Of a DNA stretch of 64,000 bases, positions 7,433 through 20,496 are shown in pieces. Position numbers and translations under genes: made by a program. The notes under the pieces were generated by a model, which was not told the DNA's origin, ran no database searches, and worked only from the letters and a program-made list of their open reading frames with translations. Each line of letters starts with the position of its first letter. Within the stretch, counting starts at the first letter, position 1. Origin of the DNA: Promethearchaeota archaeon (GTDB lineage Archaea; Asgardarchaeota; Lokiarchaeia; Sigyniarchaeales; SOKP01); assembly GCA_016930515.1 (NCBI GenBank), contig JAFGGO010000027.1:1-64000 (forward strand). The letters run 5' to 3'.

Positions 7433-8188
7433 TTATCTGATGAATAACTCCTTGATAAATCGTGGAAGAACAAAACCAATGTAAAACGAGATTGCCGAAA
7501 TAATGCCGCAAAGTCTTGAAATCACGACGATTATTTCCCCAAAATCAACAAAAAAGGTTTCAATGATCGCTCCAGATGTAAAAACAATAAAAGCAACCAA
7601 CAAGAACTTTCCTTTTAGGCGAATCTCCCTATTGTCAGCCTCTAATGCGATATAGGAAAATATTATTCCAGTTACGACAAAAGATAAGGACGCAAATAGA
7701 ATGAAAACATCTACAATATCGTTCCAGTCTGCGTAATAGGGGCTTTTTCTCGTCCCGATGGACGAGTAATCCGTAAGGAACGACGCCAAGAAGTAAATCT
7801 CAAACAGTATTCCCATAACAACCATTATACATACTAAACTTTTACGTAATTTATCCTTGGTTTTGAGAACAATGTCTCCAAAGGCCTGTATCCACGTGTA
7901 GAACATGAAAGGTATAAACGCGTTCGCCAAGAAGAAATAAATAGGGTCCGCTAATTGATATTTAACATCCCCGCCAATGGTCATGGTCAAGAAAGAGATG
8001 GAATCGCCCCACCAGGCTGTCGTGAGCAAGATCCAAGTAAGACCTACCAATAATAGCTGCCTGTCTTTATATTTAAAATATTTAACGATTATCAATATCC
8101 CTAAAATAAGGGAAATTAAGGTAAAACCTAAACTAACTGCTCCTTGTAAAAATTGAATTGGTGTGATTGGTGTCATTTTATTTTTCAC
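7433..8188 (-). CDS. 7-TM-like membrane protein, paralog family copy 1
   Basis: ORF 251 aa, highly hydrophobic; shares FLQGAVSLGFTLISLILGILIIVKYFKYKDRQLLLVGLTWIL...WWGDS...YFFLANAF...FYIGFVLPRFIK with the two upstream ORFs. Confidence 0.8.
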   Translation of the reverse strand: MKNKMTPITPIQFLQGAVSLGFTLISLILGILIIVKYFKYKDRQLLLVGLTWILLTTAWWGDSISFLTMTIGGDVKYQLADPIYFFLANAFIPFMFYTWIQAFGDIVLKTKDKLRKSLVCIMVVMGILFEIYFLASFLTDYSSIGTRKSPYYADWNDIVDVFILFASLSFVVTGIIFSYIALEADNREIRLKGKFLLVAFIVFTSGAIIETFFVDFGEIIVVISRLCGIISAISFYIGFVLPRFIKELFIR

Positions 8189-8311
8189 TATGAAATAGTT
8201 CGTAGCTTATTGATTAATAGACCAATGTGACTACAATATATATATAGCTATTGGAATTCCTTACAGAAGCGTCAAAAAGAATCTATAATTATATAAAATT
8301 CTAATGTTATT

Positions 8312-9055
8312 TTATACAATTTTGAAAATTTTTTTTACAAATTTTGGTAAAACGAACCCAATATAGAAACAAATAGCTGAAGTAATTCCAAGTATCCGGG
8401 CAATTATTATTACTGCTAAAACATCTGTAAATAATATTTCAAGGAAGGTTGCTAATGTGAAAACGACAAATGCACCTAACAAGAACCACCCCTTCAATTT
8501 GATATGTAGTTTTTCTGATTTTATGGCCGTGTATGAGAAAACCATTCCCGTGATTACCAGAAACACGGATCCGCTCAACAAATATGTATTTACATACCAA
8601 TTCCAATCGACTATGTAATAATCTATTCTTCTTCCTAATAGTCTATAATCGTAAAAGAATATTATCAAAAATACGATCTCAAAAATTATTGCCCAAAGGA
8701 CGAGAATATTTCTTATTATCTTCTTTAATTTCTGTTTCTGGTCAACAAAAACTAATTCGCTAACAGTTTTTGGCCACATGTAAAAAATTGGTGCTATGAA
8801 TGCGTTCGCAAGGAAAAAATAGGTTTCATTTGGTAAAACATTGGTTGTGAACATGTAATATATAAATGTCAATGCGTCTCCCCACCAAGGGGAAGTTATT
8901 AACATCCATGTCATCCCTACCAAGATTAATTGTTTATCCCTGTATTTATAATATTTATATAACATTAATCCACCTAATACCCCAGATATTGCCGTAAAAA
9001 TCCAAGTTAATGCTCCTTGTAAGATAATTAGTACAGGATCTGTTGAAAATGTCAT
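8312..9055 (-). CDS. 7-TM-like membrane protein, paralog family copy 2
   Basis: ORF 247 aa; shares ILQGALTWIFTAISGVLGG...YKYRDKQLILVGMTWML...SPWWGDA...YFFLANAF...FYIGFVLPKFVKKIF. Confidence 0.8.
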   Translation of the reverse strand: MTFSTDPVLIILQGALTWIFTAISGVLGGLMLYKYYKYRDKQLILVGMTWMLITSPWWGDALTFIYYMFTTNVLPNETYFFLANAFIAPIFYMWPKTVSELVFVDQKQKLKKIIRNILVLWAIIFEIVFLIIFFYDYRLLGRRIDYYIVDWNWYVNTYLLSGSVFLVITGMVFSYTAIKSEKLHIKLKGWFLLGAFVVFTLATFLEILFTDVLAVIIIARILGITSAICFYIGFVLPKFVKKIFKIV

Positions 9056-9288
9056 ATTTTTTTCATTCTTTTTTTGAAATTTTTATTCAAATATATACAA
9101 AACTCTACAAATTTAAAACTAGCTTTTAAGATAATATATTAAGATATGATCTGTTTAAATATTAAAAGGAGCAAGATCTTTTTCTAAAAAAATATTGAAA
9201 AAAACCAATAAAATTTTATATTAAGGCGCAACGCATGAAAGGTTTTTCTTATCTACTTATTGAAAAGTAATAAAAAAAAAGAAATTAA

Positions 9289-10006
9289 TTAGAGATTAAA
9301 TAGGTTTTTCACGAATTTTGGAAGGACAAAACCAATATAGAACGCTAGTGCCGAAATAATGCCACAAATTCGAGCAACGAGAATCAATTCGGGAAAATCT
9401 ACGAATATGACTTCTAATAAAGTCCATAAGGTAAAAACAACGAACGCTACGGCCAAGATTTTCCCTTTAGCCCTAACCAGCGAATTTTCCGATTTCATTG
9501 CTTTGTATGAGAACAATAATCCTGTTATTGTAAAAATAATTGCTCCAGATGTAATGTATGCAGTAACGATCGGATTCCATTCTGCCAGATAAACACCTTT
9601 TCGTTCCCCTATTTGCGTGTAATCAGTTAAGAACATGAAGAAAAACACGATCTCAAATACGATCGCCCATATACCAAGAATCCATATTATTGCATTTTTA
9701 ATTTTTGGTTTTTCTGCTAAAACCAAATTTCCAAAAGTTCTTGGCCATAATAAGAACATCGGGAATATAAGTGCGTTAGCAAGGAAAAAATAGGGCGCAT
9801 CTGCTAAATAAGTAGTTTCGTCTCCAATCAGAATCAGGCCACCACGGAGATGTTAAAAAAATCCAAGTAATGCCCACCAGCAACAATTGCTTTTCCTTAT
9901 ATCTAAGGTATTTCAAGATCAACAAAATTCCTAAAATCAAGGAAATTAAAGTGAAGGATAGCGTTAAAGCTCCTTGAATAAATAAAATTGGGTCTGTAAT
10001 TACCAT
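9289..10006 (-). pseudogene. 7-TM-like membrane protein, paralog family copy 3, split by a frameshift
   Basis: Two minus-strand ORFs (9776-10006 N-terminal, 9289-9759 C-terminal). Translating on from SPWW in the next frame gives LILIGDETTYLADAPYFFLANALIFPMFLLWPRTFGNLV, continuous with the second ORF and colinear with copies 1 and 2. The break lies at about 9838. Confidence 0.82.
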
Positions 10007-11213: not shown

Positions 11214-12386
11214 ATGCAACTAGGCGGACTCATTAAAAAAGAATTCGGAAGAATAAAAAGCGATAAACGTACTCTCGTGCTTCTCTTCTTCATTCCCCTC
11301 ATTCTCATTATCATCTTTGGACTTGTAACTGGAGGAGGTCCTACAAAATTCTTTACGGCAAGTATTATTACCCGAGATAGCATGCCCTTGGGTCAAGAAG
11401 TCAACGGTACGGCTTATTACGATGAAATATTTATATCTACCGTGCGAGATAATTGCTCCGCTTTTGGATTCCATTCGGCTTATAATAGCACGACTGAGCA
11501 AGAATATGATTCTCACTACGCCAAGTGTTTAGATCTTTTAAAAAACGGTGTTATTGGTGCAATTATCATTCTTCCAGAAAATTTTACCGAATCGGTTGAG
11601 AATGCCACTTCAAGCAATCCTCTTGTAAAAAGTGTTAATCCAGTCTTGATTTATGCCATAGACGGTTCGGATATAGAATCAGTAAACGCTATTAAAATGG
11701 CAATACAAGAACCATTAGCGCTCTTTCGCTCTCAAGTTGGAATGTTGAACAATTTTACTACGATAATGCCATCGCTCGAATTTTCAGTACCTTTTTGGGA
11801 AAGTCAGATGCTCAATTACGCTTTAGGATTGATGCTCCCGTTGATCATAATTGGTACGACAATGAACTTGACATCATTATCAATAGTATCTGAAGGACCC
11901 TTGGCACGGATGATGCTCACGCCCACGGCAAAAAATGAGATTATTCTTAGCAAAACCATCGCAAATATAGTTATAATGACTCTTCAAGCAACGGAAATTT
12001 TCGTGATGTTATCCTTTTTTGGATTGTATTGCTTGGGTTCGCTATTTGATTTTTATGCAACACTATTGCTCACGGGTTTATGTGGTATTTCAATTGGACT
12101 ATTCATTTCCGCTCTTGCTACTACGGAACAAGCTGCGAATCAAATGTACTTGATGTTTTTTATCGTATTAATAATATTTTCAGGAATGTTTGGGGTTGGT
12201 GGCACTGACGAGATGAAGTTTGTAACAAGCTTGCTTCCATTAGGATATTCGAAAGAATTAATTGTAAGCATTACCCTAAGAGGGGCACCAATGAACATGC
12301 TTTCAGCGTTTAAAATGGTAATAATTAGCTTGGTATTTCTATTATTGGCTTATTTAACCTATAGATTTAAAAAGGTGGAAGTATGA
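11214..12386 (+). CDS. ABC-2 type transporter permease
   Basis: ORF 390 aa; N-terminal TM, large extracytoplasmic loop, C-terminal TM block with EGPLARMMLTPTAKNEIILSKTIAN; 4-bp ATGA overlap with next gene. Confidence 0.88.
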   Translation: MQLGGLIKKEFGRIKSDKRTLVLLFFIPLILIIIFGLVTGGGPTKFFTASIITRDSMPLGQEVNGTAYYDEIFISTVRDNCSAFGFHSAYNSTTEQEYDSHYAKCLDLLKNGVIGAIIILPENFTESVENATSSNPLVKSVNPVLIYAIDGSDIESVNAIKMAIQEPLALFRSQVGMLNNFTTIMPSLEFSVPFWESQMLNYALGLMLPLIIIGTTMNLTSLSIVSEGPLARMMLTPTAKNEIILSKTIANIVIMTLQATEIFVMLSFFGLYCLGSLFDFYATLLLTGLCGISIGLFISALATTEQAANQMYLMFFIVLIIFSGMFGVGGTDEMKFVTSLLPLGYSKELIVSITLRGAPMNMLSAFKMVIISLVFLLLAYLTYRFKKVEV

Positions 12387-13639
12387 CAAGAAAGGATAAT
12401 ACAACTAAGAAAAAGTTACCCCTTTTTAAATCCCGTAGCAACAGTCTTTTTCGATTCTCTCGTCAAGTGAAAAAGGAATTCAAGCTTCTGTGGACCGACA
12501 AGTTCAATATCTTTTTAGCGCTCGTATTACCTCCCATGATCATTTTCTTAATTGCCTTCACTACGGGTGTCGAGGAAGAAATCTCTCCAATTAATTGCGT
12601 TGTTGTTACTTACGATTCTAACATGATCACTACTCCTAATAATTATACTGAGTATTTATTTAATAATATCACAGACTTTTCACACGATAACTATTCGTAT
12701 CTGTATCTAAATGCCGTGAATAATTCACAATATTTAACGCCCTTAGAATATAATAATCAGTTCTATCTAAACGCAACTACCGATATATACGCCATGGAAA
12801 CGGCAAGGAATTATCTGGCTGAAGGGCATGTATCTGTTATTATTGTAATCCCTATTGATTTTTCCGAAATGCTAACGCTTGGATTACCCGCATTTGTGAA
12901 TTGCATTGTTGACGGTTCGAGCGTGTTAACTCTTCAGGACAATTTAAACGCCGTGTTGGATTCCGTCAATGTATTCGTTTCAGAAAACAATCTCACGCCT
13001 CAGATAGAGCTGGTGGGATTCGAAGAATTTTCAGTTCCTAAAAATTTGAACTTTAAGTTCAACGCAATGGTAACGTTCATCCTTCCAATCATGGCATTTG
13101 GGCTCCCAATCGTACTGACAATCCTGGTTATAGTAAAAGAAAAACCCATAGCCCGATTGTTGCTCACTCCCGTAAAACGAGCAGAAATATTACTCTCAAA
13201 ATATGTTACTTATAGTGCGATTTTAGCAATTCAAACTTTATTATTGATTGTCAGTTCGGTATCGCAAGGACTCTATTGCGTGGGTAGTTATTTTGATTTA
13301 TTCTTGGCATTATTTATGTTGGGATTTTCGGCTTTGGCGTTGGGGTTGTTCATATCCACGATATCTAAGACGAAAACGGAAGCTAACCAATATTTTTTCA
13401 TGTCGTTTATTCTCATTATCGTGCTTAGCGGGTTGTTCATTCCGATAGATTCAATGCCGCTTTACCTGCAAGTTGTAGCATGGATCCTTCCCTTGAGCCA
13501 CGCAGGACCGATGATTAATAACGTTTTAACGAAAGGAATGCCCGCCATAGGTTTCGATTTTTATTGCCTATTAGCAGTTTCATCCGTCTTATTTGCCTTG
13601 AGCGTTATATTATTTCAAAGAAAACAATACGAGGCATGA
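12383..13639 (+). CDS. ABC-2 type transporter permease
   Basis: ORF 418 aa; same topology, KEKPIARLLLTPVKRAEILLSKYV; extracytoplasmic loop rich in N-X-S/T sequons; ATGA overlap with next gene. Confidence 0.88.
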   Translation: MTRKDNTTKKKLPLFKSRSNSLFRFSRQVKKEFKLLWTDKFNIFLALVLPPMIIFLIAFTTGVEEEISPINCVVVTYDSNMITTPNNYTEYLFNNITDFSHDNYSYLYLNAVNNSQYLTPLEYNNQFYLNATTDIYAMETARNYLAEGHVSVIIVIPIDFSEMLTLGLPAFVNCIVDGSSVLTLQDNLNAVLDSVNVFVSENNLTPQIELVGFEEFSVPKNLNFKFNAMVTFILPIMAFGLPIVLTILVIVKEKPIARLLLTPVKRAEILLSKYVTYSAILAIQTLLLIVSSVSQGLYCVGSYFDLFLALFMLGFSALALGLFISTISKTKTEANQYFFMSFILIIVLSGLFIPIDSMPLYLQVVAWILPLSHAGPMINNVLTKGMPAIGFDFYCLLAVSSVLFALSVILFQRKQYEA

Positions 13640-14673
13640 ACATGTCCCTAAAAAAATCAAGTCCAATCGTTGTTGAGGTCGACGATCTGAATGTTTCCTT
13701 TGGAAAGAAGAGGGTGGTCAAAAATGTTTCACTCACGGTAAATTCTGGCGAAATTATTGGGGTTTTTGGAATTTCTGGTGCGGGAAAAACTACGATGATT
13801 CGCGTGATAACTTGCCAGCTCAAAAAAAAATATTGGACGGGAACAGTTAAAGTAACGAATTTATCCGCTGCGAGAAATAAAAATCAATCGAAAATATTGG
13901 GAAACATTGGATACGTGCCACAGCTGGAGGAATTGAATTTATATTACGATTTTAAACCCTACGCAAATATCGATACTTTTGCCTCGACATACGGAATGGA
14001 TGTAAAAAAGGCAAAAGATATCGCAGAAAATTTATTCACGATTCTTGACATACCAAAAGATACTTGGAGCAAGAAACTAAAAAAGATGAGTGGTGGTGAA
14101 AAAAAAAGAGTCTCAATGGCTTTAGGCCTTATTCATCAACCGGCAATTCTATTCTTGGACGAACCTACGACGGGAGTTGACGCATACAAGCGATATTCAA
14201 TTCTAACTTATTTAAAAAAATTGAACGTGCAATTAGGGACGACGATGTTTATCATTAGCCACGACATGGAGTGTTCCTTAGTTTGCGATAAGGCCGCTAT
14301 AATGCGGGAGGGAAAGTTGCTTGAATTTGGAAAACCAGCAGATTTAATCGCTTCACTTCCCAGTAATGGCGTTATTGCTTCATTTACGATAGAAGATTTA
14401 AACAAGAAGAAAATCGAAGAAATAAAAGATTTTTCTCCTGTTAGAAACATTATTAGGGCGGGAAACGATGTGATTGAGGTTTTAATGGATAATTACGACG
14501 AGAATATTTCCGACTTGGTCCAGCATATTATGAACGCAGGAATTAAGATCACATCAATGACTAAGGACATCGCAACTTTTCGGAGATATTTCCAAATTCG
14601 TATTCAAGACGAAGAGGAGAAGGAAAGAAGAAATATCGATCATTTATCAGAATCCAATGACATGAATAATTAA
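13636..14673 (+). CDS. ABC transporter ATP-binding protein
   Basis: Walker A GISGAGKTT, signature MSGGEKKRV, Walker B AILFLDEPTTG, H-loop IISHD. ORF track starts at 13564; ATG at 13636 forms an ATGA overlap with the upstream stop and is a better start. Confidence 0.92.
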   Translation: MNMSLKKSSPIVVEVDDLNVSFGKKRVVKNVSLTVNSGEIIGVFGISGAGKTTMIRVITCQLKKKYWTGTVKVTNLSAARNKNQSKILGNIGYVPQLEELNLYYDFKPYANIDTFASTYGMDVKKAKDIAENLFTILDIPKDTWSKKLKKMSGGEKKRVSMALGLIHQPAILFLDEPTTGVDAYKRYSILTYLKKLNVQLGTTMFIISHDMECSLVCDKAAIMREGKLLEFGKPADLIASLPSNGVIASFTIEDLNKKKIEEIKDFSPVRNIIRAGNDVIEVLMDNYDENISDLVQHIMNAGIKITSMTKDIATFRRYFQIRIQDEEEKERRNIDHLSESNDMNN

Positions 14674-14694: not shown

Positions 14695-17600
14695 ATGAAA
14701 AAGAAAACAATTAGTGCGGTAGTCAGATCCTCTGAGATTTTTAAAGTAAGCCCTAAATTCAAGAGAAAGCTTAAAGTGTTTATAATTATCGCGATTCTCA
14801 TCTTGATACCTATAATTGGAATGGCTTTGGTAAACATTCCATATATTTCCTATTTTACACCAGAAGAAGTAGACGAATACAAGGACAGCATGTATTTCTT
14901 CTCAAATTCCCATCAAAATTCCGCTTCGGGTTTGTTTATAGAGGCCGATATTGATTCTAACTTCAGGATCGCAACTGCAATTAATTGGACTAGTTTCAAT
15001 CCACAAATTTTTAACCTTATAAATCCCGTTGATAACGATTATTTAAAATCCATCTCAAAACCTAATTTTTACCTCGATTATCTCTTCGATAAGCAAAACA
15101 AAGACGGTTCATTTTCAGATATTGGAGGTTTAGGAGACATGTTTACTACTTATCAGGTCATTGATACGATTATGACCTTGAACGAATCCTATATTAATTC
15201 CATTCGACATCAAGACAAGATTAATAGGATCATGACATTTCTAAATTCCTCTTCATATACGGATCCCGCGAATCTAACGACCGGATTTAAAAATAGTCAA
15301 TTTTCGTTATTACCGGATATGATATCAACAAGTAATGCAGTGGAAATTGCGAACTATTTTTCTTGGGATTATTTTTTAAACAATCAGAACATTACAAATT
15401 ACATACTTGGATCCTTAAGGACTATTACAATTGGATCACTCATAACTGGATGGGGGTATTCTAATTCGTTATTATCTGCAGATCCTGATGCCGAAAGCAC
15501 TTTTTATGGAATTAAGGCTTATCTTGGATTGAATAAATCGTATTCTACTGCGGACAAGATATTATTTATGGGATTTTTTAATGATATTTACGATCCACTT
15601 AATGGTGGATTTAGGAATACATTAATATCAATAAATGATATTGAATCGACATATTATTGTCTTTCTTCAATAGAAAGGCTAAATTATAGTTATCCAGTTT
15701 TGTTCAACGCAAGTCGAACTCTTAATTTTATATTAAATTGCTCCGATCCTGATGGTGGTTTCGGTTTAAGACCAGATATTTTAACAAATTACTCCTCTGA
15801 TTTCGTTTCTTCAGGGGCAGCAATGAAAGCTTTAGCCATTCTCGAGCGGAACTTTAACTTCAGCGAAGAACAGCAACTCGCCATTAACGAAACAAAAAGC
15901 AGGTTTTACACTTGGTTATCTGGTTATCAGGCGTTAAACGGTTTATTTGGACACATCACCATTGAGTCCAACTATTGGGGCGTTTTATCTGCCATTCAAT
16001 ATTACCCTTCGAGCTTTCTCGATCACATTAATGTTAAAAATATATTCGCTTATATAAACAGTTGCTATGTCATTGAGACGGGAGGCTATTCGAGTGAGCC
16101 ATTCATACCTTCGAGTCTTTTTTCAACCTATCTTGCTATTAATATGTACGATATTTTTACATCCTATGTGGACGATTTGTGGTTGTATAACGAGTCCGCA
16201 ACTGAAGCATATATTGCGTCGCTTCAAAATCCGGATGGTGGTTTTAGAATTGGAAACGATCAAGATAGTTTATTCCGTCAACTTGGAGTGTTTTATTCCG
16301 TTATAAACGATTTAATCGATGTTAATACTTCGATTGTGGAAAGCACTTATTGGGCTGTTGAATCGCTTGATATTCTTGGCGCCCTAAATTTAATAGATTT
16401 AAATAATCTAACTCATTTTATCCGGTCGTGTCAGAACGCAGATGGGGGGTTTGGGTTGTTCTTAGGCTTTTCCTATAGCGATATTATTTCAACATATTAT
16501 GCCTTGCATGTTTTTTATTTGTTTGATTCTGAACCCCTATCGAAAATATTGGCAATAAATTTCCTCAAGAACGCTCAAAACACTGACGGAAGTTTTTCTC
16601 CCATGCCAACTTTATCCATGCTCGGTTTGTCGGTTTCCTTCTTTTTGGTTACTTATCTCGGGGCAAAGGGGTTGTACGATTTTTCTTATCAACCTACTGA
16701 TATTTGGGCTTTTTTGGATTGGTTCGTACTGTGTGTTGATAAAAAAACGGGAGGCGTGGGAGATGTGCAAGGATTTGGCGGTGATTTAAGAAACACGGTA
16801 TACGGAATGATCATAATTGACGATTTAAGGTACGATCGAGCATTCGATCCAGAACCGTGGACGACGCTTTTTACAAGGATCTTATTAGTCGAAATTATTG
16901 CAATTGTTGGTTTTATCTTGTTAAAAATGAGTTCTTACGCAAATGTGGTTATATTAAGAAGAATTAAAGCTAAATTAGGGATTGGTGAAAAAATGGAAGT
17001 ATCTTATCTTCGCCGCTACCCTGCGATTCGATGCGAAAATCTGAGCATTTTTGCGGGGAGGAAATTGATCGTGAATTCAATGTCTTTAACTTTAGAACAT
17101 GGAGAAATATTAGGAGTTCTCGGCGAAAGTGGTGCTGGAAAATCCACTTTCGTGAAGAGTCTGCTCGGAATGAGAAAATTTAAGGGGACAAACCAAGTAT
17201 ATGGAATGGATGTAAAAAAGAAATCAAAAAAAATGCGTCCAATTTATGGATATGTACCTCAGGATTTGAGCAAGATCTATGAGGATTTTACGACATATCA
17301 GAACATTCTTTATTTTGGCAGGCAATACGGCTTATCCGAAAGAGAAATTAGAAGGAAAGCGAAACGCATTCTGAGAAGCCTGGAAATTGATGATAAAATG
17401 CACGAACAAGTGAAAAATCTTTCTGGAGGTCAAAAAAGGCGTGTAAGCATTGCAATTGGCTTAATCCACGACCCGATCATCGTCTGGATGGATGAGCCTA
17501 CTTCAGGATTGGACCCTGTTGTACGAGAGAATTTATGGCACGCTCTCACTCGAATTAACGAAGAATTTAATACGACACTCATCGTGATTACCCATTATCC

Positions 17601-17976
17601 AGAGGAATCGCGCTTTTGTAATAAAGTTGCAATATTTGGAAGGGGGCGTGGTTTGATAGATTTTGGACATCCGAAGGATCTCTTGGGGCAATTACCAGGA
17701 AAGGGGAGAACAATTGGATTAATATTCAGAAATACGGAAGAAAAAGCCCTTGAAAGACTCGAATCGATATTAGGTATTAGTAAAGCATTAGAAAACAAAG
17801 CAGGAATGGAATTCTCCCTTCTTTCTGATCTTAATATAAGAGAACTTAAAAGTAGAATCGAACTTGAATTTGGACTCTCATCAATAGCCGAATTAAAGCA
17901 AACAGATAGTAAAATGGAGGAATATTTTCGATACAGGGCCATGGATGTCCCTTCTGACGAAATAGATCTTGGTTAG
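14695..17976 (+). CDS. Fusion protein: membrane-anchored extracytoplasmic alpha/alpha-toroid (prenyltransferase/terpene-cyclase-like repeats) + TM + cytoplasmic ABC ATPase
   Basis: ORF 1093 aa. N-terminal TM; repeated toroid motifs (KDGSFSDIGG, DPDGGFGLRP, LQNPDGGFRIG, CQNADGGFGLF, AQNTDGSFSPM); second TM LFTRILLVEIIAIVGFILLKM; NBD with GESGAGKST, LSGGQKRR, IVWMDEPTSGLDP, ITHYPEE. Confidence 0.85.
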   Translation: MKKKTISAVVRSSEIFKVSPKFKRKLKVFIIIAILILIPIIGMALVNIPYISYFTPEEVDEYKDSMYFFSNSHQNSASGLFIEADIDSNFRIATAINWTSFNPQIFNLINPVDNDYLKSISKPNFYLDYLFDKQNKDGSFSDIGGLGDMFTTYQVIDTIMTLNESYINSIRHQDKINRIMTFLNSSSYTDPANLTTGFKNSQFSLLPDMISTSNAVEIANYFSWDYFLNNQNITNYILGSLRTITIGSLITGWGYSNSLLSADPDAESTFYGIKAYLGLNKSYSTADKILFMGFFNDIYDPLNGGFRNTLISINDIESTYYCLSSIERLNYSYPVLFNASRTLNFILNCSDPDGGFGLRPDILTNYSSDFVSSGAAMKALAILERNFNFSEEQQLAINETKSRFYTWLSGYQALNGLFGHITIESNYWGVLSAIQYYPSSFLDHINVKNIFAYINSCYVIETGGYSSEPFIPSSLFSTYLAINMYDIFTSYVDDLWLYNESATEAYIASLQNPDGGFRIGNDQDSLFRQLGVFYSVINDLIDVNTSIVESTYWAVESLDILGALNLIDLNNLTHFIRSCQNADGGFGLFLGFSYSDIISTYYALHVFYLFDSEPLSKILAINFLKNAQNTDGSFSPMPTLSMLGLSVSFFLVTYLGAKGLYDFSYQPTDIWAFLDWFVLCVDKKTGGVGDVQGFGGDLRNTVYGMIIIDDLRYDRAFDPEPWTTLFTRILLVEIIAIVGFILLKMSSYANVVILRRIKAKLGIGEKMEVSYLRRYPAIRCENLSIFAGRKLIVNSMSLTLEHGEILGVLGESGAGKSTFVKSLLGMRKFKGTNQVYGMDVKKKSKKMRPIYGYVPQDLSKIYEDFTTYQNILYFGRQYGLSEREIRRKAKRILRSLEIDDKMHEQVKNLSGGQKRRVSIAIGLIHDPIIVWMDEPTSGLDPVVRENLWHALTRINEEFNTTLIVITHYPEESRFCNKVAIFGRGRGLIDFGHPKDLLGQLPGKGRTIGLIFRNTEEKALERLESILGISKALENKAGMEFSLLSDLNIRELKSRIELEFGLSSIAELKQTDSKMEEYFRYRAMDVPSDEIDLG

Positions 17977-17988
17977 GTGTTTTAAACA

Positions 17989-19722
17989 ATGACAATTATA
18001 GAAAATCTCTCGAGAAAAAAGGAACTTGAAACGCTCCGATTAAAGATCGTAGATGCGATCAGATATTCAACGAGCTATTGGATGATATTTAAGGAAAAAA
18101 CATTTGGTATCGCAACTATTTTGGACATAATATACAAGCGTTCTTATATTGAAGTCTTATTCTTTACAAAATACGATGTGTTAAATTTTAGCGTGCCTTT
18201 ATTGAAAATTTCCACACCTATTGAAACTGAAGTTGATTTTAACGAAATTCTTCTTGAGCCGGATATTGATGATGATGGTCTCGTGAGCCCAAAAAAGATA
18301 ATACAACGCCTAAACAATCTTATAAAAAACGAAATCAATCATCATATTGCTATTTTAGACGAACAAATAATGTTAATTCAAGAAAAATACGAGAATTACA
18401 CAATAGAAGATAATCCATACAAGAGAGTTATTTTTATTCATTTCAAGAACTTTTACATATCGTTAAAAGTTGATTTCGAGAAATATCCCCTTGCTCCAAA
18501 ATTTTCTTTTTCAAAATATCTATCGAAATTATGTTCTTTAAACCAATTTTTGGACAAAAAATTTTTCAAGAATTGGGATAGTACTAATGCTCCCAATGTG
18601 ATAGAATGCATCGATCTTCTTGTAGGGATTATCTTAGAAAAACAAAATTTTGATAAGTTACCAAATGGTTCTCAGCATGTAATTCTTGAAAACTTAACGG
18701 TAAATTCTTCCTTCAGGAAGATTTCTTTTAAGATACTTCGCGGTCAATCAATAGGAATTATTTATTCCATTCAATACCCTAAAAAAGATAAAGAAATATC
18801 AAATCCATTAGACGAGTTCTTTCAAGCGATTTCAGGTAAAAACACCTCTTTTAATGGAAAAATTAAAATTTTTGGAAAAAATGTGCAATTGTTATTGAAG
18901 AGCGAAATGGAAAAAATTGTTACAATATCATCAGATACTGATGTATCATTTGGAGCTTCAACTATTTTTAGAAAAATGATCAAAAATTATCATCCAAAAT
19001 TCCAAGGGAATGAAACCAAGAAATCTATTCAAGATTCTCAACTGAAGATTAAAATAGGAAAGTTCCCAAAAATATGGACTGTTTATGAAGCACGAAGAAG
19101 AAGATCTAAAAAGGATTACATTTCAAAAATTTTAAAATTAACTAGTTTATATGATAGAAAAAACGAAAAAATCAAGAAACTGTCGAAATTAGAGCAAATA
19201 TTGTTTCAAATCTCTAATGCACTTTTGCAAAAACCTTTCTTGATTCTGCTTTCGTTAAGTTCAACATATTTGGGGCGCTTAGAAATTGAAAAATTAAATA
19301 AATCTATCTCTAACATTGAAAGAAAATTTCATGTTTCCTTCATCATTCACGGCTCGAAAGATGTAATTTCGAGTTGCGATCAAGTCATGACGATTACAGA
19401 AGAAAAAATTGATATAGGATCTGTTGAAGATTATGTGCATAAATTACCACAATCTGGAGAGATTATAACTGTAGAATTAAGCAATCCAGACCGTGCTGCA
19501 GTGAAGGAAATGCGTTCTCTTGATTCAGTCTTCATCATTGAAGAGAGAAGGAACGAGAAATATAAGTTATTCGTTAAAGAGGATCCTGAAATAATCCTCC
19601 TTTATTTATTGGAATTGTTTGGTCCAAAATTGTATAATTTTAAGCGTTTTAAAGCGACTTTAGGAGAATATATTGAATTTTTAGAAGGTCGCAGATTAGG
19701 TACGCAATATAAATTGAGGTAA
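17989..19722 (+). CDS. Degenerate ABC ATPase-like protein (probable pseudoenzyme) with unassigned N-terminal region, possibly RWD/UBC-like
   Basis: ORF 577 aa. C-terminal half is colinear with an ABC NBD (ISFKILRGQSIGIIYS; LSKLEQILFQISNALLQKPFLILLSLSS; SFIIHGSKDVISSCDQVMTI; VEDYVHKLPQSGEIITVEL) but lacks Walker A, LSGG and Walker B DE. N-terminal half has FYISLKVDFEKYPLAPKFSF...W...NVIECIDLLVGIIL. Confidence 0.65.
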   Translation: MTIIENLSRKKELETLRLKIVDAIRYSTSYWMIFKEKTFGIATILDIIYKRSYIEVLFFTKYDVLNFSVPLLKISTPIETEVDFNEILLEPDIDDDGLVSPKKIIQRLNNLIKNEINHHIAILDEQIMLIQEKYENYTIEDNPYKRVIFIHFKNFYISLKVDFEKYPLAPKFSFSKYLSKLCSLNQFLDKKFFKNWDSTNAPNVIECIDLLVGIILEKQNFDKLPNGSQHVILENLTVNSSFRKISFKILRGQSIGIIYSIQYPKKDKEISNPLDEFFQAISGKNTSFNGKIKIFGKNVQLLLKSEMEKIVTISSDTDVSFGASTIFRKMIKNYHPKFQGNETKKSIQDSQLKIKIGKFPKIWTVYEARRRRSKKDYISKILKLTSLYDRKNEKIKKLSKLEQILFQISNALLQKPFLILLSLSSTYLGRLEIEKLNKSISNIERKFHVSFIIHGSKDVISSCDQVMTITEEKIDIGSVEDYVHKLPQSGEIITVELSNPDRAAVKEMRSLDSVFIIEERRNEKYKLFVKEDPEIILLYLLELFGPKLYNFKRFKATLGEYIEFLEGRRLGTQYKLR

Positions 19723-19725
19723 GAA

Positions 19726-20496
19726 TTGATGATAAAAAGCATATACTTGATGCAAGAAAACGGAGTATTGTTATATTCAAAAGAATATCAGAATGTCTAT
19801 TTTGATACTAACCTTTTGATCGGCTTTTTTGCTTCAATAGCCAACTTTAGCAGAGAAGCCTTAAACACGGCTGTGAAAAATGTTGATTTGGGAGAGGAAA
19901 ATAAGGTCATTCTTCAAGCTAATCCAAAAGAAGGGCTTATGGCTGCGGCGATTGTGAGTCCTGGGGATAACATTTCCCTTATTCAAGAGATTTTAACCAA
20001 TATTATCTTGGATTTTATCAACGAATTTCCCTCGTTCGAAGATCCTGAAAGACTTGACCGTGCAACAATCGAATTAATTTTTAAGGTTAATATGAGGAGA
20101 AAGACATTTCCCTCACCACCCCTACTTCTTACTGCTTCTTTAATCCTGTTGACTCCCGTTCTGATTATTCTCGTGTTCATCTCAATATATTTAACTAACG
20201 CGTTTCAAGAACTGTTCTACAATTTCACATTCAGTTTAGTAGTTTATACATCGATTACATTGTTATTTCTCACGGTAATTCCGAACTTAATTTCTGGTTT
20301 CTTAGCTCCAGATAAGAGATATGCGTGGTTTAATACATTTGCAATCATTGCTTTCGAAGTTGTTTTTTATGTGGTATCAGTTGAGCGATTATTTGCTCAA
20401 ATAACTTTAGCTAACCTTCCCATAAATTTCTTGTTGTCAATTGCTTCAGCGTATTTTGGATTTCAATTGTCTTCCCGCAGATATCTAAAAAAATAG
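19726..20496 (+). CDS. Longin/roadblock-like domain fused to a C-terminal membrane domain of about 4 TM
   Basis: ORF 256 aa; N-terminus IKSIYLMQENGVLLYSKEY...NLLIGFFASIANFSREAL... resembles longin-type small sensor domains; C-terminal half contains about 4 hydrophobic helices. Confidence 0.6.
   Translation: MMIKSIYLMQENGVLLYSKEYQNVYFDTNLLIGFFASIANFSREALNTAVKNVDLGEENKVILQANPKEGLMAAAIVSPGDNISLIQEILTNIILDFINEFPSFEDPERLDRATIELIFKVNMRRKTFPSPPLLLTASLILLTPVLIILVFISIYLTNAFQELFYNFTFSLVVYTSITLLFLTVIPNLISGFLAPDKRYAWFNTFAIIAFEVVFYVVSVERLFAQITLANLPINFLLSIASAYFGFQLSSRRYLKK

Follow-up and report, generated by a model that had tools for sequence, protein, structure and literature searches.

ABC-2 exporters of the DrrAB/NodIJ/RbbA/ABCA type are not known to us to carry an alpha/alpha-toroid. 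Prenyl chains are common ligands of toroids of the prenyltransferase-type family, and the lipids of archaea are isoprenoids; extracellular ligand-binding toroids include those of complement and intrinsic factor. Longin and RWD/UBC-type domains are familiar mainly from the trafficking and ubiquitin systems of eukaryotes, and longin-type proteins serve as a platform for small GTPases. In Asgard archaea, the longin, roadblock, and RWD/UBC-like domain types recur widely across the phylum (PMC10933270). As for ABC systems with parts outside the cell, the nucleotide-binding domain (NBD) of TagGH is joined via one transmembrane (TM) helix to an outside domain that somewhat resembles SH3b, and Bce-type systems use a single outside domain together with a partner kinase for sensing (PMC11466899).

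The DNA analyzed here, referred to as the window, is a stretch of 64,000 nucleotides from a lokiarchaeial genome. It carries a conserved gene block in which one gene encodes a TM helix, two tandem toroids, a second TM helix, and a complete NBD (Table 1). A first-pass annotation had described that gene as an extracytoplasmic toroid fused to an ABC ATPase; two further genes of the six-gene block, those for NBD3 and a longin-like protein, escaped it. Open literature was searched for a toroid-ABC fusion or such an operon and nothing relevant was found, nor did the open papers yield any homolog of known function. The fusion is real and conserved and, with a well-modeled predicted structure, appears undescribed in the literature searched; its function is predicted below.

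Table 1. Features of the gene block in the window, and interrupted NBD1 genes at other loci
Feature	Position	Strand	Evidence or remark
Permease A, ABC-2 type, large loop between TM1 and later TMs	11214..12386	+	PF12698, 1.8e-20; hydropathy
Permease B, ABC-2 type	12383..13639	+	PF12698, 4.3e-26; 4-base overlap with permease A
NBD1, complete ABC ATPase, DrrA-like	13636..14673	+	Pfam, 2.5e-24; motifs
Fusion protein, TM1-toroid A-toroid B-TM2-NBD2	14695..17976	+	Single open frame of 1093 aa
TM1, residues 28-46	14776..14832	+	Hydropathy 3.27; flanking charges
Toroid A, repeats 1-6, residues ∼66-390 (approximate boundary)	14890..15864	+	Repeat list; HHalign; model
Toroid B, repeats 7-12, residues ∼391-715 (approximate boundary)	15865..16839	+	Model; profile; Foldseek; repeat list
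GDxxxFGxDLRN motif, repeat 12, residues 689-700	16759..16794	+	20 of 21 orthologs
TM2, residues 725-743	16867..16923	+	Hydropathy 2.54; flanking charges
NBD2 (residues 776-1000) and C-terminal domain	17020..17973	+	Pfam; motifs at 810, 854, 909, 933, 965
NBD3, tandem RWD/UBC-like domains (residues ∼9-219), then ABC NBD fold without ATPase motifs	17989..19722	+	
Longin-like domain, then four-helix membrane part	19726..20496	+	Model; weak longin-fold matches; hydropathy
Interrupted NBD1	L045:4363-5404	+	
Interrupted NBD1	L048:13071-13961	-	
Interrupted NBD1	L051:11240-12270	-	
Interrupted NBD1	L052:3513-4556	+	
Interrupted NBD1	L055:12208-13270	-	
Interrupted NBD1	L163:150-1300	+	
Interrupted NBD1	L164:100-1350	-	

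Domain architecture of the fusion protein

The uninterrupted reading frame, the N-terminal and second TM helices, and the complete NBD listed in the first-pass annotation are all borne out by the frame, the hydropathy profile, and the motifs. Pfam comparisons of the ORF yielded matches to Prenyltrans (PF00432) in four stretches (E = 4.1e-29; 102 bits against a cutoff of 26.5) and to ABC_tran (PF00005; E = 4.8e-26, well above the cutoff). NBD2 contains the full set of Walker A (GESGAGKST), Q-loop (VPQ), signature (LSGGQ), Walker B (DEPTSG), and H-loop (ITH) motifs. In most orthologs of the fusion, positive charges flank TM1 and TM2 on the predicted inner side, as judged by hydropathy and the positive-inside rule. 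The predicted order is a short cytoplasmic N terminus, a TM helix, toroids of ∼670 aa on the outside, another TM helix, and a cytoplasmic ATPase, and it is from this predicted topology that we infer the location of the toroids outside the cell. TM2 does link the toroids to the NBD, as previously suggested; the toroids are held by two TM helices. The earlier count of about fifteen N-X-S/T sequons also stands (15 in residues 52 to 735). However, these sequons are weak evidence of surface exposure, because their enrichment over shuffled sequences across the orthologs is no larger in the toroid part (2.32 per 100 aa, compared with 1.29 in shuffles) than in the NBD (1.01 compared with 0.46). Sequon density was dropped as proof of exposure, the NBD being likewise enriched.

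An AlphaFold2 model of residues 52 to 735, built with 21 orthologs, has a mean pLDDT of 90.4 and a pTM of 0.89. Its top PDB match in Foldseek is the beta subunit of Rab geranylgeranyltransferase (RabGGTase; E = 8e-10), with TM-scores by target mostly in the range of 0.70 to 0.72 over ∼300 columns, and the toroid sequence profile matches the prenyltransferase beta family with an E value of 1.2e-25. Squalene-hopene cyclase aligns over ∼760 columns with a lower score (TM-score by query, 0.38 to 0.40). Aligned half versus half, the toroid part shows homology between its two halves (HHalign E = 4.4e-29), and 12 repeat units can be counted in it, i.e., two sets of six; it therefore consists of two six-repeat toroids in tandem. 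The toroid fold is thus a high-confidence prediction: the reading of this region as an alpha/alpha-toroid is supported by the model, Foldseek, and Pfam, except that one toroid has become two and the "at least five" repeats claimed earlier have become 12.

The residues that characterize the enzymatic and thioester-containing members of the toroid families are a different matter. The zinc ligands of prenyltransferases (D, C, and H) are not kept at the positions aligned to RabGGTase, and no D-x-C is conserved among the 21 fusion orthologs; the DxDD motif of class II terpene cyclases is absent in 20 of them and is not conserved, and the GCGEQ thioester motif of A2M/C3 is absent in all 21. Because the zinc triad, DxDD, and the thioester motif are absent, the toroids are likelier to bind or hand over a ligand than to carry out prenyltransferase, cyclase, or thioester chemistry. 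A role as a cobalamin-binding protein was considered and rejected, as Pfam detected no cobalamin-binding or DUF4430-type match in the fusion ORF.

Toroid repeats were also seen in a 1,236-aa protein without TM helices that is encoded elsewhere in the same genome (G000, contig C161; L104:2252-5962, minus strand). Its long middle part is coiled-coil-like; the protein also has a PCI match (5e-6) and a longin-like C-terminal domain (profile match, 2.8e-7), making it a second toroid/longin-like link in this genome. In another Asgard class, genome G099 encodes two adjoining toroid-repeat proteins (L103:3096-5609 and L103:5628-9740, both on the plus strand) with predicted signal/TM segments; in the latter protein there are several TM helices, and its C-terminal part, judged by eye, resembles an ATP-grasp enzyme.

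Gene block and its phyletic distribution

In most of the 20 neighborhoods compared, the block has the order permease A, permease B, NBD1, fusion, NBD3, and longin-like protein. The neighbors of the fusion gene, permease A among them, are constant in nearly all of the 20 loci; in L059 the block is rearranged and the fusion is kept. The matches of both permeases to ABC2_membrane_3 (PF12698) exceed the Pfam cutoff. NBD1, which was listed as an ORF starting from TTG at 13564, is likelier to start from ATG at 13636 or 13642; it contains complete Walker A, signature, Walker B, and H-loop motifs, just as NBD2 does, and matches drrA at 7.9e-52, which is under the curated cutoff. The nearest relatives of the NBDs of the block are DrrA, NodI, and RbbA, along with ABCA/ABCG structures. 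The longin-like ORF starts at TTG 19726 or ATG 19729. In three genomes, unrelated ORFs were found inside the otherwise tight block, between permease B and NBD1 or between the fusion and NBD3, at L050:12444-13976, L051:12738-13679, and L052:7750-8487 (all on the minus strand). Elsewhere in the window (positions 7433 to 9759, minus strand) are three tandem, paralog-like ORFs for membrane proteins, with lengths of 251 aa, 247 aa, and, in the shortened third one, 156 aa; the 247-aa ORF had no Pfam match at E ≤ 0.05.

A single-protein scan of the genome contigs recovered one locus only, and the distribution was therefore derived from whole-genome profiles. The toroid profile detected the fusion at E ≤ 1e-30 in 48 of 232 Asgard genomes, all from a single class (Lokiarchaeia), and one additional toroid protein, lacking the ABC domain, in another class. 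Permease B was found at E ≤ 1e-60 in 44 fusion-bearing genomes and in one genome of another class (G105), in which both permease genes and the start of NBD1 lie at a contig end, so the fusion and permease B are encoded in nearly identical sets of genomes. Sequence identity of the orthologs to the fusion protein of the window ranges from 60% down to ∼31%, and dozens of independent assemblies contain it as an open frame of full length. The genes flanking the block vary between genera. Some members of the same family, such as the five genomes of genus g6 without exception, lack the block, so the lineage can do without it. A plasmid search produced one toroid protein with 24% identity and no toroid-ABC fusion.

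NBD3 and the longin-like protein

These two proteins were folded together, using alignment rows read through the intergenic stop, and their placement relative to each other in the joint model is meaningless. The ABC NBD fold of NBD3 is nearest to 4yer (TM-score by target, 0.72). Its orthologs have lost the Walker A, signature, and Walker B motifs, which makes NBD3 a dead NBD. The N-terminal 220 residues are modeled as two alpha-beta4-alpha units in tandem. Foldseek matches of the joint model are almost only ABC NBDs, so this RWD-like part comes without confirmation from the fold search; a sequence search gave an RWD match at 6.9e-4 in one NBD3 member, and the NBD3 profile also extends to further proteins from Lokiarchaeia, with matches to UQ_con (1.5e-8) and RWD (1.8e-8). 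As no cysteine is conserved in this N-terminal part among 18 members, it is not an active E2. The UBC/RWD-related lokiarchaeial proteins reached by the NBD3 profile (L115:1124-2806 and L118:456-2111, minus strand; L117:685-1344, plus strand) include several UBC/RWD-like units with a Cys/His-rich tail resembling a RING, as well as one fusion of a UBC-like domain with JAB.

In the last protein of the block, the modeled secondary structure is beta2-alpha-beta3-alpha, followed by the four-helix membrane part. Its N-terminal domain shows weak matches, all under the cutoff, to families of the longin/roadblock fold, namely Sybindin (0.0094), Clat_adaptor_s (0.023), and Intu_longin_1 (0.061), and its relatives show similarly weak matches to Longin (0.029) and Fuz_longin_1 (0.063); a longin protein in BFVD was matched with an E value of 0.24 and a probability of 0.97. 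The profile of this protein matches 206 of the 232 Asgard genomes, mostly via the N-terminal domain. The models and profiles are consistent with a domain that is longin-like, as distinct from a proven longin.

Candidate introns in NBD1 genes

Seven genomes (Table 1) have an interrupted NBD1, always at the identical site between DEPTT and GVDA (Walker B region), and 13 other inspected orthologs, including the one in the window, have no insert there. The inserts are 31 to 34 nt long and bring in stop codons or a frame change; skipping their nucleotides restores a long open frame in all seven cases. Each insert can form a bulge-helix-bulge structure with an outer helix of 3/3 pairs, bulges of 3 nt, and a central helix that is 4/4 in six inserts and 3/4 in one, and the inserts show paired changes between genomes (AACT/AGTT, GACT/AGTT, and TACC/GGTA). 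A helix-plus-hairpin score, which was defined after seeing the sequences, is reached by ≤1% of shuffled inserts. In a tree of 37 NBD1 proteins, the interrupted members each group with uninterrupted ones, and the tree requires no fewer than seven gains or losses. A sequence resembling the g2-type insert is present in a single copy in each of three genomes; no other copy turned up in the 11 genomes searched. Archaeal pre-mRNA introns of the bulge-helix-bulge kind are known from cbf5, where they can be as short as 36 bp, with cleavage taking place after the second of the three bulge residues (PMC2738675). The NBD1 inserts can be viewed as candidate protein-gene introns; seven assemblies are unlikely to share an error at one site by chance, and ribosomal bypass might operate on the inserts instead of splicing.

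Possible functions of the system

We favor, with about an even chance of being right, the view that the fusion is the ATPase subunit of a conserved lokiarchaeial ABC-2 (type V) exporter with substrate-handling toroids on the outside. An exporter is proposed because the permeases and NBDs are of the ABC-2 export class, close to DrrAB, NodI, RbbA, and ABCA; it is from this family resemblance that we infer the direction of transport. The core of such a complex would consist of two nonidentical permeases plus the complete but distinct NBD1 and NBD2, with NBD2 tied by a single helix to the two tandem alpha/alpha-toroids on the outer face. The permeases would most likely carry a substrate that is hydrophobic or lipid-linked to the outside, where the toroids would bind it, shield it, and pass it on, acting as a receiving or presenting cup to which ATP turnover by NBD2 would be mechanically linked. 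NBD3 and the longin-like membrane protein may be regulatory or recruiting subunits, roles that are as putative as the complex itself. No substrate-naming gene was found within the block. Since toroids of such a family often bind prenyl chains in their cavity, an isoprenoid lipid or lipid-linked glycan is tentatively suggested as the best single candidate for the substrate, by analogy and with considerable doubt; the ligand of the toroids might also be a protein or a glycan.

The toroids could, alternatively, form a receptor, in which an outside ligand (a peptide, glycan, or cofactor) would signal via TM2 to NBD2 for sensing or uptake. Toroids of other kinds do bind protein or cofactor ligands outside cells, and the extra cytoplasmic modules of the block, NBD3 and the longin-like protein, could relay a signal. 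The Bce-type systems offer a parallel in their outside sensing domain, although they work with a partner kinase (PMC11466899), and the conserved block includes no kinase or regulator gene. With permeases and NBDs of the export rather than the importer class, and with the lack of cobalamin-binding or DUF4430-type Pfam matches, we consider a receptor unlikely. A mainly structural role, as a surface scaffold or an anchor to the cell coat or partner cells that makes no contact with the substrate, is less likely still: non-ABC toroid proteins encoded in the same and in a distant Asgard genome, some with TM helices and surface-like repeats, would fit it, but the high conservation of the toroids, which extends to polar motifs such as GDxxxFGxDLRN (20 of 21 orthologs), would not, and a mere anchor needs neither an invariably fused ATPase nor a second TM helix.

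That the nearest relatives of the toroids, by both fold and sequence, are beta subunits of protein prenyltransferases might suggest an active prenyltransferase, cyclase, or thioester domain outside the cell. Such activity is disfavored by the residues, namely the loss of the RabGGTase zinc ligands and the lack of conserved D-x-C, DxDD, or GCGEQ, and the block has no gene for an alpha subunit, all of which makes it very improbable. Finally, every genome is a draft or metagenome-type assembly, and contamination amounts to a few percent in several of them, so the fusion might be thought an artifact of assembly or of joining the frames of adjoining genes. Dozens of separate assemblies, with contigs of 498 kb and 382 kb among them, show this fusion with an unbroken frame and an unchanged order of domains, which refutes this explanation and leaves it a negligible probability.

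If the predicted topology of the proposed exporter is right, the ATPase holds its own outside substrate-handling cup through a single helix, which would provide a direct handle on the coupling of ATP turnover to extracellular events. A bolder version, which we regard as quite doubtful, is an exporter that loads an outside double toroid and is controlled from the inside by a longin-type protein and a dead ATPase with noncatalytic E2-like domains; if true, it would mean that archaeal export is wired to trafficking-type and ubiquitin-type domains. The presence of longin-like and RWD/UBC-like domains in one conserved transporter operon makes their function in Asgard archaea testable.

Comparison with known systems

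The block shares its permease and NBD families with the DrrAB/NodIJ/RbbA/ABCA-type ABC-2 exporters, but its matches to these named families are all under the curated cutoffs. The protein prenyltransferase beta subunits (RabGGTase and FTase) have the six-repeat alpha/alpha-toroid in common with the fusion and provide its best fold and sequence match, whereas the fusion has two toroids in tandem, predicted to be outside, an attached ATPase, and no zinc triad. Squalene-hopene cyclase likewise has two toroid domains per chain; the fusion differs from it in lacking DxDD and in the low overall TM-score by query. NBD3 and the longin-like protein represent domain types that are widely recurrent in the Asgard phylum, but here the tandem RWD/UBC-like domains are joined to a dead ABC ATPase and the longin-like domain to a four-helix membrane part, both within a transporter block.

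The first-pass annotation considered the placement of the toroid outside the cell and its tethering to an NBD unusual. An outside toroid is not in itself unusual here, because non-ABC toroid proteins, some with TM helices, are encoded in the same genome and phylum, and an NBD tethered to an ectodomain has a precedent in TagGH. The TagGH/TarGH teichoic-acid exporters are of type V, the class proposed for the lokiarchaeial system, and in their NBD subunit a single TM helix leads from the NBD to a domain on the outside (PMC11466899); TagGH thus shows that an NBD-tethered ectodomain already exists in the type V class, in an exporter whose substrate is a lipid-linked polymer. Its order, however, is NBD-TM-ectodomain, the ectodomain being SH3b-like, while the order of the fusion is TM-toroids-TM-NBD with an ectodomain of ∼670 aa. 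Unlike TagGH/TarGH, the lokiarchaeial block encodes both NBDs and both permeases by different genes and carries three further gene products. Judged against open papers and the Asgard genomes, what is new relative to TagGH is the toroid fold, its tandem arrangement, the reverse domain order, and the gene block.
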